DNA from: Asaia bogorensis
GTDB lineage: Bacteria > Pseudomonadota > Alphaproteobacteria > Acetobacterales > Acetobacteraceae
Length of the DNA: 32,400 nucleotides
Reading direction: 5' to 3'
Assembly: GCA_945869965.1 (NCBI GenBank)
Contig: CAMBRC010000048.1
Location: 1 to 32,400 of the forward strand
The notes below the pieces were generated by a model. The model made no database searches and had not been told where the DNA came from. It saw nothing but the letters and a program-made list of their open reading frames with translations. This document shows, in pieces, positions 1-6,094 of this stretch; positions within the stretch are counted from its first letter, which is position 1, and every line of letters starts with the position of its first letter. The position numbers and the translations under genes are program-made.

Positions 1-2
1 GG

Positions 3-119
3 GCGCGGGTCTCGGTCGTCCACATGCTCGGCCTCGCTGATCGATGCAAGGGAGTGAGTCACAGGTGGTTCGCGCCGGGCAAGCCAATCTTCCGGGCAAC
101 AAACAGAAGATTCAAATGA
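3..119 (+). CDS. C-terminal end of an upstream gene (partial, unknown)
   Basis: This reading frame is open from the left edge of the window and ends in TGA at 117-119. It encodes 38 residues rich in Arg, Lys and His, with no recognisable motif. Its stop overlaps the ATG at 116 in an ATGA arrangement, the same coupling seen between the next two genes. That is the main reason to read it as the tail of a first operon gene rather than as noise. A longer frame of the following gene, opening at ATG 44, would overlap this tail for over 70 bases and is therefore less likely. The stretch is too short to identify and chance openness is possible. Confidence 0.4.
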   Translation, partial: ARVSVVHMLGLADRCKGVSHRWFAPGKPIFRATNRRFK

Positions 120-712
120 CTCATAATCCTTCCGGACGGACACTAAGAGCTATCGTACGGGAGAATTTATTGGATCATCCACAGGTCGAGTTGGCCCGAC
201 TTGGGACGGAACATCCAGGTCTCACGAACGTAATTGCCGCCTTTTATGCTGAGGCAGCCGAAGTTTGTCTCAGCAGGCATCATGCACCACCGCGCGGAGT
301 AACGGTAGAAACCGCCCGAGGTGACGCTAAATTTGTTCTCTTGTGGAATGCACCAGACGACCGCACTCGCAATGCTTGGGCCAACGAGATCGATGCCACT
401 GAAGCCGGGGCCTGTGGCGTGTGCCTCTTGGCGGTCGAGCTTAACCTCGGCTTGGTTGCAATCATGAGGGCCGAGACCGCAACCGGGGCGGATTATTATG
501 TGGCGCCAGTTGGCGCACCTTTGGACGACATCGAGAACGCATACAGGCTAGAGATATCTGGAGTCGATAGAGGCAATGCTGCGGCAGTGCATAGAAGATT
601 GACGGAAAAGGTCGCTCAGGCACGAAGGGGAAAGAGCAACCGCCCAGCGCTGGCCTCTGTCTGCGGCTTTCAACTAGGCCTTGTTGCTGTTTCGGACGTA
701 ATCTTCCCATGA
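116..712 (+). CDS. Uncharacterised 198-aa protein, first partner of a coupled pair
   Basis: I do not recognise a named domain. The protein starts with a basic stretch, then a helical segment (about residues 20-50), and then a conserved-looking centre containing APDDRTRNAWANEIDATEAGA, WANEIDATEAGACG being its most distinctive part. This is followed by a hydrophobic segment, TGADYYVAP, and a C-terminal part ending in a hydrophobic strand. It has no signal peptide and no clear transmembrane helix, so it is probably cytoplasmic. The ATG at 116 is preferred over ATG 44 because it forms an ATGA overlap with an upstream stop. Its own stop overlaps the next start (ATGA at 709-712), so the two proteins are probably made in fixed ratio and may act together. 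Base composition is clearly poorer in G+C than the rest of the window, which suggests acquisition by transfer. Confidence 0.75.
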   Translation: MTHNPSGRTLRAIVRENLLDHPQVELARLGTEHPGLTNVIAAFYAEAAEVCLSRHHAPPRGVTVETARGDAKFVLLWNAPDDRTRNAWANEIDATEAGACGVCLLAVELNLGLVAIMRAETATGADYYVAPVGAPLDDIENAYRLEISGVDRGNAAAVHRRLTEKVAQARRGKSNRPALASVCGFQLGLVAVSDVIFP

Positions 713-1818
713 CGTGGGTAGAATATCACCGGGCAAGCGAAGTAGCAGCAGCGCAGGCTACTATTGCTCAGAATGCAGGGATAACCTCCGCTTCTCTCGA
801 GTGGTTTAGAAAAGCGGCCGAATTGGAGCAGAAGGCTCTTTCCGATATTCCGGCTGACAAACCCCGCACGCGGGGTGTAGTTGCAATCAGTGCCTCATCT
901 CTATGGCTAAATTCGGAAAGTCATGATGAGGCAGAAAGTATTGCGCTGGACGTCTTGAGAGATAACACTCTTCCAGATTTCGCTCGCGAGCAAGCTCGCG
1001 AGATATGCCAAATGATATGGATCAAGCGCAAATTCCAGGAAGCAAATGTTGGATTCCTTCCGGGAATGGTTACGGTGTCAATTAAGGGAAAGGAAATCGC
1101 TTACGGCGGAGCACCGCTCGATTTGATTGTTGAGAAGGTGCAGGCGATTCAGGCGATATTCTTTCGTACGATCGAATACAAGAGAGGAATGCCGCACCGT
1201 TTGCGCGGGGCTGCACCCAAGGAAGTGCAGGAGGCATGTCGGCCGTGGCTATTTCAGGCTCCTCCCGGCAGCTATCAATTCACAGTGGCTGTCAAGACCC
1301 CTTCTCAGAAAGATTTCTTCAGAGAAGAGATAAGGCCGAATGAAATCGCTGAAGAGTTTTTGCGGGTCTTGAGTGCATCAATAAGTGAGGATGCTTCCGC
1401 GCTCGACGAAATCGTGACAGACTCACAGTATAAAAATACATTTCTTAAGTTATCGAGATCCTTGGTTCCAAGCGGCAAAAATCACGATCGAATTGACCTG
1501 CGAAGCGGCCACTCCGAAGTGTCCGTAACACCCGAAAATAGAGCCGCTATCTCCAAGAAAATATCAGCCTCTCGTGTGGCAGTTGCCAAACCCGCCGACA
1601 GTTCGTTGCAAGAAGAGCAAATTTCAGGAACGTTGCGAGCGGTGAATCTTGATGAGGATTGGCTTATTGTGCATCAGGGGGGAGAGCAAATTCGTATTGA
1701 TAACTTGGGGGATACGGCAGACGATGTTATAGGACCAATGGTGAATAAAGATGTTGTAGTGCGTGTATTGAGCAATTCGTTCCGTAAAGTATTTATTGAT
1801 ATCGAGAGAGTCGAATAG
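709..1818 (+). CDS. Uncharacterised 369-aa protein: TPR-like N-terminus, beta-barrel-like C-terminus
   Basis: The function is unknown. Residues about 5-105 look like paired helices of a TPR-type solenoid: AAELEQKAL, then DKPRTRGVVAISASSLWL, then HDEAESIALDVL, then FAREQAREICQMIW. A middle region of about residues 115-270 contains GGAPLDLIVEKVQAIQAIFF, a segment ending in CRPWLFQAPPGSYQFTVAV, and FLKLSRSLVPSGK; these read like an ordered domain. A linker follows. The last 65 residues or so form short strands (ISGTLRAVNLD, DDVIGPMVNKDVVVRV, FIDIERVE) suggestive of a small beta-barrel of the kind that binds nucleic acid or peptide; this is inference from pattern only. No catalytic motif or export signal is visible. 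The gene is A/T-rich relative to the core genes, overlaps the 198-aa gene by four bases, and ends just before a GC-rich repeat that appears to mark the edge of the foreign segment. Confidence 0.85.
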   Translation: MTWVEYHRASEVAAAQATIAQNAGITSASLEWFRKAAELEQKALSDIPADKPRTRGVVAISASSLWLNSESHDEAESIALDVLRDNTLPDFAREQAREICQMIWIKRKFQEANVGFLPGMVTVSIKGKEIAYGGAPLDLIVEKVQAIQAIFFRTIEYKRGMPHRLRGAAPKEVQEACRPWLFQAPPGSYQFTVAVKTPSQKDFFREEIRPNEIAEEFLRVLSASISEDASALDEIVTDSQYKNTFLKLSRSLVPSGKNHDRIDLRSGHSEVSVTPENRAAISKKISASRVAVAKPADSSLQEEQISGTLRAVNLDEDWLIVHQGGEQIRIDNLGDTADDVIGPMVNKDVVVRVLSNSFRKVFIDIERVE

Positions 1819-1926: not shown

Positions 1927-2745
1927 TTACAGCCCGCCGGCCTTGGCGATGCGTTCGACGCTGCGGAGCCAGTCGTCGAGTTCGCGGTCGGTGGGTTCGA
2001 TCATGATGTGGTTGATGCCGGCTTCGGCGTAGGCGGCGAGGCGGGATTTCAGGGCGTCCTGGTCTTGGCCGTCCCAGGAGGTTCGCAGGGAGATGGTGAA
2101 GTCGGGGCCTGGGCGGGCGGCGCGGAGGGTTTGGACCAGGGTTTTGGCTTCTTCGGGGGTTTGGCGGGTGCCGTGCCAGCCGTCGTGTTTGAGGGCTCGG
2201 GCGAGGGCGGGGGGTGAGTTGCCGCCGATCCAGATGGGGATGGGGGGCGGGAGGGGGCGCATGCGCATGTCCTCGATTTCCGCCTCGATGAGTTTGGTTT
2301 TGAAGGTGACGGGGTCTTGGGTCCAGAGGGCTTTCATGAGGGCCAGGCCCTCGTTCATGCGGCGGCCGCGTTGGTTGAAGTTGGCGCCGAGGGCGCGGAA
2401 TTCGGCTTCCATCCAGCCGACGCCGGCGCCGAAGATGAGGCGGCCGTTGGAGAGGGTGGCGAGGGTTGCGAGTTCCTTGGCGAGCGGGACGGGGTGTCGC
2501 ATGGGGAGGACGAGGACGGTGGTGCCGAGTTTGATGCGGGTGGTGTAGGCGGCGGCCCAGGTGAGGGTGAGGACGGGTTCGTAGAAGATGTTGGAGGGGG
2601 GGTATGGGGCGCCGTTGGGGAGGATGATGTGTTCGGAGACCCAGGCGTCGGTGAAGCCGAGGTCTTCGGCTTGGATGGCGGCGCGGCGGATGGCGTCGGG
2701 GGTGGCTTTGCGGCCGATGTGGGGGAGATGGATGCCGAGTTGCAT
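1927..2745 (-). CDS. LLM-class (luciferase-like) F420/flavin-dependent oxidoreductase
   Basis: This is a 272-residue TIM-barrel protein of the bacterial luciferase-like monooxygenase superfamily, resembling the subgroup often annotated as probable F420-dependent. Visible family features are the N-terminal MQLGIHLPHIG strand, DAWVSEHIILP, the TTRIKLGTTVLVLPMRHPV segment, LSNGRLIFGAGVGWMEAEF, and PPPIPIWIGGNSP near the C-terminal half. Substrate and cofactor (F420 versus FMN) cannot be told from sequence alone. The ATG at 2745 was chosen because the barrel begins there; the 40 upstream residues of the longer frame are translated repeat sequence. It follows a second LLM gene on the same strand after 148 bases of repeat, so it may be the last, weakly linked gene of the phosphotransferase operon. 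Confidence 0.85.
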   Translation of the reverse strand: MQLGIHLPHIGRKATPDAIRRAAIQAEDLGFTDAWVSEHIILPNGAPYPPSNIFYEPVLTLTWAAAYTTRIKLGTTVLVLPMRHPVPLAKELATLATLSNGRLIFGAGVGWMEAEFRALGANFNQRGRRMNEGLALMKALWTQDPVTFKTKLIEAEIEDMRMRPLPPPIPIWIGGNSPPALARALKHDGWHGTRQTPEEAKTLVQTLRAARPGPDFTISLRTSWDGQDQDALKSRLAAYAEAGINHIMIEPTDRELDDWLRSVERIAKAGGL

Positions 2746-2755
2746 GGTTGAGCCT

Positions 2756-2896
2756 CGGGGTTTTGGGGGGGTGGGAGGGGTGAGCAAAAGCGAGAGCCCC
2801 CCTCCGGCTCCCCCCGACCGCGGGGGGAGAGAAGCAAGAATGGATGGGGTCTGGGGCGACGCCACAGCGGGGTCGAGGGGCGGAGCCCTCGCCTTA
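2756..2896. repeat. Composite GC-rich repeat between two LLM genes, copy 2
   Basis: It has two parts. The first, at about 2796-2831, is a C/G-rich palindromic stretch (CCCCCCTCCGGC, then CCCCCCGACCGCGGGGGG). The second, from about 2841, repeats the GATGGGGTCTGGGGC unit and the GAGCCCTCGCCTT end of the GC-rich family. The last bases include the TTA that forms the stop codon of the neighbouring minus-strand gene. Strong secondary structure here would be expected to weaken read-through into the last gene of the operon. Confidence 0.75.
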
Positions 2897-3853
2897 CTTA
2901 GGGCGGGCGGGTTTGGGCCAGCGGCGGGCGATCTCGGGGAGGATTTGTTCGATCAGGAGGCGGGTTTGGCGGGTGACTTCCTGGCCATCGTTGCCGATGG
3001 GGCGGAGGATGAATTTCTGGGCGCCGGCTTGGATGTATTGGGTGATGCGGTCGAGGATGGTGGTGGCGTCGCCGATGGCGAAGTAGGTGTCGGGGTCGGC
3101 GCCGGTTCGTTTGGCGTAGGCGGCTTTGGCGCGGGCGATGCCGGGGTCTTGGGGGGTGCCGAAGCGGAAGGGGAAGGCGGCGCCGTAGTGGTCTTCGTCG
3201 ATGGGGCGGCCGGCCTGGGTGCTGGCGGTGCGGATGGCGGCGACGATTTCGGCGAGTTGGGCGGGGGTTTCGGCGCCGGCTTGCCATCCGGTGCCGTATT
3301 TGGCGGTGCGGCGGATGGCGGCTTCGGAGGCGCCGCCGATCCAGATGGGCAGGTCGGGCTGGACGGGTTTGGGGGCGATCTGGGCGTTGGTGAGTTTGAA
3401 GTGGCGGCCCTGGTAGGTGACGGGGTTGCCGGTCCAGAGGGCGGCGATGATCTCTAGGGCTTCGTCGGTTTTGCGGCCTCTTGTGGTGGAGTCGAGGTGG
3501 AGGGTTTCCCATTCGGGGGCGCGGGGGGAGCCGATGCCGAAGCCGGGGAGGAGGCGGCCTTCGGAGAGCATGTCGATGGTGGCGCATTGCTTGGCCAGGA
3601 GGACGGGGTCGCGCATGGCCAGGGAGACGACGTTGACGCCGAATTTGAGGCGGCGGGTGCGGCCGGCGAGGGCGGCCATGACGGACATGCATTCGAGGAT
3701 GGGGGTGCTGGAGACGATGCGGTCGGTTTGCCAGAGGCTGTCGATGCCGCCGTGTTCGCAGAGGTCGACCCAGCGCCAGAATTCGGGGGCGTCGGCGAAG
3801 GGGAACTCGGTCATGCCGAGGCCGATTGCGACTTTCAGGGGTGCGACTTTCAT
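2894..3853 (-). CDS. LLM-class flavin/F420-dependent oxidoreductase, coupled to EI gene
   Basis: This is a 319-residue luciferase-like monooxygenase family protein, paralogous in fold to its downstream neighbour but only distantly similar. Landmarks are IGLGMTEFPF at the N-terminus, DSLWQTDRIVSSTPILE, RRLKFGVNVVSLAMRDPV, LSEGRLLPGFGIGSPRAPEW, and QPDLPIWIGGASEAAIRR. These match the barrel strands that hold the flavin or deazaflavin in this superfamily. The substrate is unknown. Its ATG overlaps the stop of the EI gene (ATGA), so it is translated as part of the phosphotransferase operon. That is an unusual partner and may reflect either control by the same signals or simple adjacency. The stop codon lies in the edge of a GC-rich repeat. 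Confidence 0.88.
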   Translation of the reverse strand: MKVAPLKVAIGLGMTEFPFADAPEFWRWVDLCEHGGIDSLWQTDRIVSSTPILECMSVMAALAGRTRRLKFGVNVVSLAMRDPVLLAKQCATIDMLSEGRLLPGFGIGSPRAPEWETLHLDSTTRGRKTDEALEIIAALWTGNPVTYQGRHFKLTNAQIAPKPVQPDLPIWIGGASEAAIRRTAKYGTGWQAGAETPAQLAEIVAAIRTASTQAGRPIDEDHYGAAFPFRFGTPQDPGIARAKAAYAKRTGADPDTYFAIGDATTILDRITQYIQAGAQKFILRPIGNDGQEVTRQTRLLIEQILPEIARRWPKPARPK

Positions 3854-5730: not shown

Positions 5731-6094
5731 TAAAGCCGGCCTCGACGAGGGCGGACAAGGCGTCCATCGCCTCCTTGGCGTCCCAGCCCTCGGCGCGCAG
5801 GGTGATGGTGGAGCCGAGACCGGCGCCGAGCATCATCAGGCCCATGATCGAGCGGGCCGAGACCGACTGGCCGTCCTTCTCGACATCGACCGAGGCGCCG
5901 AAGCGTTCGGCCAGGGTGACGAACTTGGCAGCGGCGCGGGCGTGAAGGCCGCGCTTGTTGCAGATCACCAGTTGGCGGCGCAGCACCGAGGCTTCCGTGC
6001 CGTCGGACGCACTGCCGTCGGACGCACTGCCATCGGACGCACTGCCATCGGACGCACTGCCATCGGACGCACTGGCATCGTCGGGGCCGCTCAC
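5717..6094 (-). CDS. ptsH: Phosphocarrier protein HPr with repeat-bearing N-terminal extension
   Basis: HPr carries phosphate from enzyme I to EIIA and is also phosphorylated on serine by HprK. With the GTG start at 6094 the protein has 125 residues. The catalytic histidine is H51 in NKRGLHARAAAKF, and the regulatory serine is S82 in SVSARSIMGLMMLG. The GTG overlaps the EIIA stop (GTGA), matching the coupling elsewhere in this operon. Ordinary HPr is close to 90 residues. The extra 35 or so at the front contain five perfect SASDG pentapeptides encoded by a 15-bp tandem repeat. There is no other obvious start between the repeat and the fold, so the extension is probably translated. The longer frame opening at 6178 lies inside the EIIA gene and was not used. 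Confidence 0.9.
   Translation of the reverse strand: MSGPDDASASDGSASDGSASDGSASDGSASDGTEASVLRRQLVICNKRGLHARAAAKFVTLAERFGASVDVEKDGQSVSARSIMGLMMLGAGLGSTITLRAEGWDAKEAMDALSALVEAGFNEQD
5999..6073 (-). repeat. 15-bp in-frame tandem repeat (5 units) in the HPr gene
   Basis: Five consecutive 15-base units, plus-strand form GTCGGACGCACTGCC with single-base variants, encode SASDG x5. Because the unit is a multiple of three, copy-number change by slippage would lengthen or shorten the protein without breaking the frame. Confidence 0.92.

Follow-up and report, generated by a model that had tools for sequence, protein, structure and literature searches.

A listing in Vassallo et al. (2022; PMC9519451) places DUF6575 among the domains of defence systems that were found experimentally in E. 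coli. Pfam puts this domain at the front of such proteins, and the region behind it resembles gene B, the second of the two overlapping genes described here. The window, i.e., the whole stretch of 32,400 nucleotides that we analysed, is the start of a contig of Asaia bogorensis, the genome of which is assembled as 209 contigs. We read the pair as a two-gene mobile immune system in which A would be a nuclease and B its partner or sensor, and assign this reading a probability of about 0.5.

In the list of open reading frames, A and B occupy positions 116–712 and 709–1818 of the plus strand and share the ATGA at 709–712. Their composition differs from that of the DNA to their right, as the earlier note had said: the GC content of 149–1818 is 0.512, whereas all 1670-nt segments to the right of the cassette, taken in 50-nt steps, have a mean of 0.680 and a range of 0.596–0.732. 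The same was apparent from the third codon positions, with GC3 values of 0.54 for A and 0.47 for B vs 0.86–0.89 for the three genes measured to the right.

The pair had also been described as the end of a longer chain, in which an ATGA at 116–119 would couple A to a third gene whose tail occupies 3–119. Only the overlap of A with B is real. The third gene and the upstream ATGA are artefacts because positions 1–144 (minus strand) are the end part of a multicopy IS5-family insertion sequence (IS), with the transposase start running leftwards off the contig. The 38-aa reading of 3–116 has 100% identical copies in 10 other contigs of the same genome and a 30-aa copy in an eleventh, and a third coupled gene was rejected on these exact copies. 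The DNA of seven copies was read; each lies at a contig end, and identity to the window ceases at 144–149. GGACAC is followed by TAA or TTA in all eight cases, the window included, which resembles the TNA target copies of some IS5 relatives. Furthermore, the minus strand of the window reads MWTTETRA, and an IS5-family transposase from a related genome begins with MWTTKTRA. Another genus of the family has a related element, 69% identical, that encodes DUF4096 and DDE_Tnp_1 transposase pieces, which point away from the matching end. The gene upstream of the cassette is an IS and not a housekeeping gene; when a contig breaks off inside an IS, the remaining end can thus look like a gene in translational coupling with its neighbour. 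The cassette is real, with two genes rather than three.

The ATGA at 116–119 lies within the IS, and the 198-aa reading of A begins with about 10 residues that are IS DNA. Probably, A starts at TTG170 and has 180 residues, instead of starting at 116. The TTG (170–172) sits 6 nt past GGGAG (159–163), a probable native Shine-Dalgarno sequence, and gives A an N-terminus about as long as that of its relatives. Only about 23–26 bp separate the IS from this start, and the upstream insertion may have altered expression of A in this genome.

To the right of the pair, a palindromic repeat at 1864–1925 had been taken as a sign of a moved module. It marks no cassette edge because its core occurs in 176 copies (82 + 94) in the genome, against 0 for the reversed control pattern, and it was rejected as a mobile border; a second, similar palindrome copy lies at 2840–2900. 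The only close orthologue for the right flank was found in one genome (G006, 92%), whose contig stops 234 bp left of the orthologue. Two adjacent minus-strand genes at 1927–3853 have, by eye, the look of luciferase-type monooxygenases, and a search with the first of them listed 26 matches in the same genome. At 5998–6080, a 15-bp tandem repeat (5.5 copies, 97% matches) falls in the minus-strand reading of SDGSA repeats. The cassette was ruled out as an RNA feature, as searches of the window gave no Rfam match at gathering and no tRNA.

To judge from its AF2 model (pLDDT 91.2, pTM 0.86), weak Foldseek matches and invariant residues, A (170–712, plus strand) is predicted to be a nuclease of the PD-(D/E)XK type. 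The modelled helix 91–111, strands 113–118, 127–131 and 143–150, helix 155–170 and strand 178–184 follow the alpha-beta-beta-beta-alpha-beta order of the PD-(D/E)XK core. Among the 20 best Foldseek matches in the PDB, 18 are nucleases (seven tRNA-splicing endonuclease, seven SPARDA, three MGME1 and one SSO0001), which are usually placed in or near this superfamily. In that search nothing reached an E-value of 0.001, the best value being 0.024, and no TM score among the 20 best rows exceeded 0.39. A profile search of A against PDB chains gave no match, and neither did comparison with the Pfam, NCBIfam, PADLOC and PHROGs families.

E96, D126, E146, K165 and Q168 are unchanged in all 14 aligned A sequences, an alignment that leaves out the Leptolyngbya copy and the A of L011. 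The central motif of the 198-aa protein to which the earlier note drew attention, WANEIDATEAGACG, is conserved in part and includes the invariant E96 and A99. Position 148, the site of the motif lysine, is serine in 13 sequences and alanine in one. D126 and E146 are invariant, the K of (D/E)-x-K is lacking, and the invariant K165 lies nearby. Because the motif lysine is absent, A could be inactive. Its replacement by S or A in every aligned sequence fits an unlikely reading in which A is a non-cutting recognition subunit with a nuclease fold and the rear half of B is an effector exchanged between lineages. However, a pure binding subunit would not need E96, D126, E146 and K165 all to be invariant in 14 of 14 sequences.

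The model of B (pLDDT 83.3, pTM 0.65) has a TPR front, a middle alpha/beta domain and a beta-rich tail. Residues 1–118 (709–1062, plus strand) form a helix-pair solenoid with modelled helices at 3–22, 26–46, 52–68, 72–84 and 90–111; this part matches the designed TPR protein 7obi in a profile search (E 2.7e-7), and its Pfam TPR match is weak. Residues 119–300 (1063–1608, plus strand) are the middle domain, for which model, hhalign and profile indicate a distant similarity to the rear half of DUF6575 proteins. For the putative OB-like beta barrel of residues 301–369 and the stop codon (1609–1818, plus strand), the best PDB matches are OB-like (CusF and SilF), with E-values of 0.015–0.03, above 0.001. 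The designed-TPR match and the beta-rich tail bear out the original description of the 369-aa protein as a TPR-like solenoid joined to a beta-barrel-like tail.

The relation of B to DUF6575 proteins was seen in several comparisons. A BFVD search with B gave two matches at E ≤ 0.001 (TM 0.31–0.35), of which a DUF6575 protein was the best (1.0e-7) and a protein of Leptospira phage LE1 the other (2.7e-7). With hhalign, B and the DUF6575 proteins of Arthrobacter and Rhodococcus aligned with a score of 40.3 (E 1.4e-4, probability 52%), whereas 200 column shuffles never exceeded 24.7 and a reversed template scored 15.6. Of four DUF6575 proteins, two were matched by a profile of the rear part of B, with E-values of 0.0027 and 0.014 against 0.19 for the best decoy. 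When B was compared profile to profile with those of enterobacteria, at most a 19-column GSF motif aligned, and the Pfam model PF20215 (DUF6575) matched neither B (P0003) nor the A9 members. Because of these scores, and because the enterobacterial proteins do not align usefully, the rear half of B is probably akin to the rear half of DUF6575 proteins, but distantly so. On Rahnella and Pantoea plasmids (L069 2552–4275 and L070 2540–4245), a DUF6575 gene follows a small overlapping or abutting gene that has no Pfam match in either genus; this is possibly a parallel two-gene system.

Relatives were sought with the A and B sequences and then with alignments. They were found in Polaromonas and Undibacterium, on plasmids of Anabaena, Hymenobacter and Leptolyngbya, and on IMG/VR contigs. 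Counting A loci once per contig, 15 have readable downstream DNA, the window included; a 16th contig (L011) ends directly after A. In all 15, the gene next to A begins with the TPR module of B, so homologues that are not neighbours of one another, which would have spoken against a module, were not what we found. The 14 measured junctions comprise nine overlaps of 4 nt, three overlaps of 8–17 nt and two cases in which the genes are 1 nt apart.

A long B like that of the window, with about 250 further conserved residues behind the TPR module, occurs at 11 of the 15 loci. In the other forms the rear part is unrelated (L010), absent (Anabaena and Leptolyngbya), or replaced by a sugar transferase fused to the TPR module beside A on a Hymenobacter plasmid (L014 8525–9430; Bac_transf in Pfam, E 2.8e-52). 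The Leptolyngbya copy of A may be decayed, as the annotated gene begins mid-gene. When the TPR modules of the long forms were made into a profile, it matched the five other forms (E 1.3e-18 to 1.5e-32), one of them a TPR-only remnant without A (L026); with the rear-part profile, none of these five rose above decoys.

The retention of A and the TPR module with a rear part of B that varies in this way fits the non-cutting recognition subunit, and the cyanobacterial forms without any rear part argue against it. Because of these forms, A plus the TPR module seems to be sufficient. The variation would also suit a modular immune platform, with A and the TPR adaptor as invariant core and differing rear effectors grafted on. 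Most forms would carry the DUF6575-like plus OB module, L010 an unrelated domain and Hymenobacter a sugar transferase of the phosphoglycosyl-transferase type, and the cyanobacterial forms would carry none. We regard this as a tentative and doubtful reading.

The forms of B also bear on whether the pair serves maintenance of plasmids or prophages and not defence, as an addiction pair in which A would be a toxic nuclease that the TPR protein neutralises. Two overlapping genes, the first small and nuclease-like, on plasmid and phage-like carriers agree with such a toxin-antitoxin pair, as does the smallest form, A plus a TPR protein of 115–127 residues. A simple neutraliser would not need the roughly 250 extra conserved residues of 11 of the 15 B proteins, and we consider this explanation rather unlikely. 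The TPR-only remnant of L026 and a B fragment without A near a terminase (L022) fit toxin-antitoxin and defence alike.

The distribution of the pair is sporadic. B was found only in the genome of the window among 60 relatives, A only there among 299 genomes of the family, and A or B only there among 337 genomes of the class and 398 of the phylum. These sets overlap, and the search could miss copies because it scores only the best first-look candidates. Searching a phage collection by tblastn with A and B of the window and one other A gave nothing convincing. The core-like distribution that would have counted against a moved module was thus not seen in the family, class or phylum sets.

Several relatives lie on mobile DNA. 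At L024 (7462–9152), phage tail genes surround the pair, and the tape measure (PHROG E 7e-7) comes right after it; L013 has it near a Mu-type transposase (E 4.1e-99), and in L007 an integrase follows. The site before the tape measure of phages often holds cargo genes, often immune cargo. From its sporadic presence, odd composition and mobile carriers, the pair is cargo of mobile genomic islands.

In five relatives, the pair has known or candidate defence genes as neighbours. At L031 (5172–12625), its immediate flanks are type III restriction-modification genes on one side and a SIR2-HerA pair on the other. A PglX-like methylase follows it in L006; a D12 methylase, a SacI-like enzyme and AbiV precede it in L009. 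A type IV restriction enzyme lies about 6 kb away in L004, and the neighbours at L003 include a RhuM-type candidate and a NERD protein. The scan covered chosen neighbours, so these five loci are examples rather than a frequency set against a background. PADLOC scanning left out the neighbours at L002, L007, L008, L010, L013, L015, L021 and L024; for L021 only A and B were scanned, and these, like A and B of the window, gave 0 families in PADLOC 2.0.0.

Such neighbours could stand there by chance if the pair were ordinary phage or plasmid cargo without an immune role, e.g., for help in replication or maintenance. The positions between tail genes before the tape measure (L024), beside Mu-type genes (L013) and on plasmids suit such cargo, and the defence-flanked loci come from a scan of chosen neighbours. 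On the other hand, immune cargo is often found at such phage positions, and pairs also occur in islands that are not phage-like and hold several different known defence systems (L031 and L009). We find ordinary cargo quite improbable. The earlier note had suggested a module that moved horizontally and might serve defence; this is supported by the sporadic spread, the pairing at 15 of 15 loci across phyla, the plasmid and phage-like carriers, and the defence neighbours of five relatives.

If the pair is an immune system, A would be a small PD-(D/E)XK-type nuclease in which the missing motif lysine (S, once A) is replaced by the invariant K165 in the next helix. The TPR module of B would dock on A, and the middle and OB-like domains might license A after sensing or binding an invader's nucleic acid, with the overlapping reading frames holding the two proteins in ratio. 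We infer the nuclease activity, the contact between A and B, the recognition of nucleic acid by the OB-like domain, and phage as the target. The pair is probably an undescribed antiviral system and is new to the family libraries used, though a literature search is no proof of novelty. If this is correct, Pseudomonadota, Bacteroidota and Cyanobacteriota would have in common a small, portable two-gene nuclease system that has no match in Pfam, NCBIfam, PADLOC or PHROGs. It would also tie the DUF6575-type rear domain, listed from an experimental defence screen (PMC9519451), to a predicted nuclease partner.

With type II toxin-antitoxin systems, the pair shares the two short overlapping genes on mobile DNA; unlike them, it has a longer B, which at 11 of 15 loci includes conserved rear domains. 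The predicted nuclease and the methylases near L031, L006 and L009 are points in common with restriction-modification systems, whereas neither gene of the pair is a methylase and at most loci none lies within it. The predicted order of elements in A and its acidic residues in the helix and in the second and third strands are like those of the PD-(D/E)XK superfamily. It differs in having E-x-S (once E-x-A) in place of E-x-K and the invariant K165-x-x-Q168 in the next helix. B and the DUF6575 proteins of Arthrobacter and Rhodococcus align over their rear halves, a viral DUF6575 protein is the best structural match of B, and the DUF6575 gene of Rahnella and Pantoea is, like B, the second of an overlapping pair. 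In contrast to DUF6575 proteins (PF20215), B has a TPR front where the DUF6575 domain would be.
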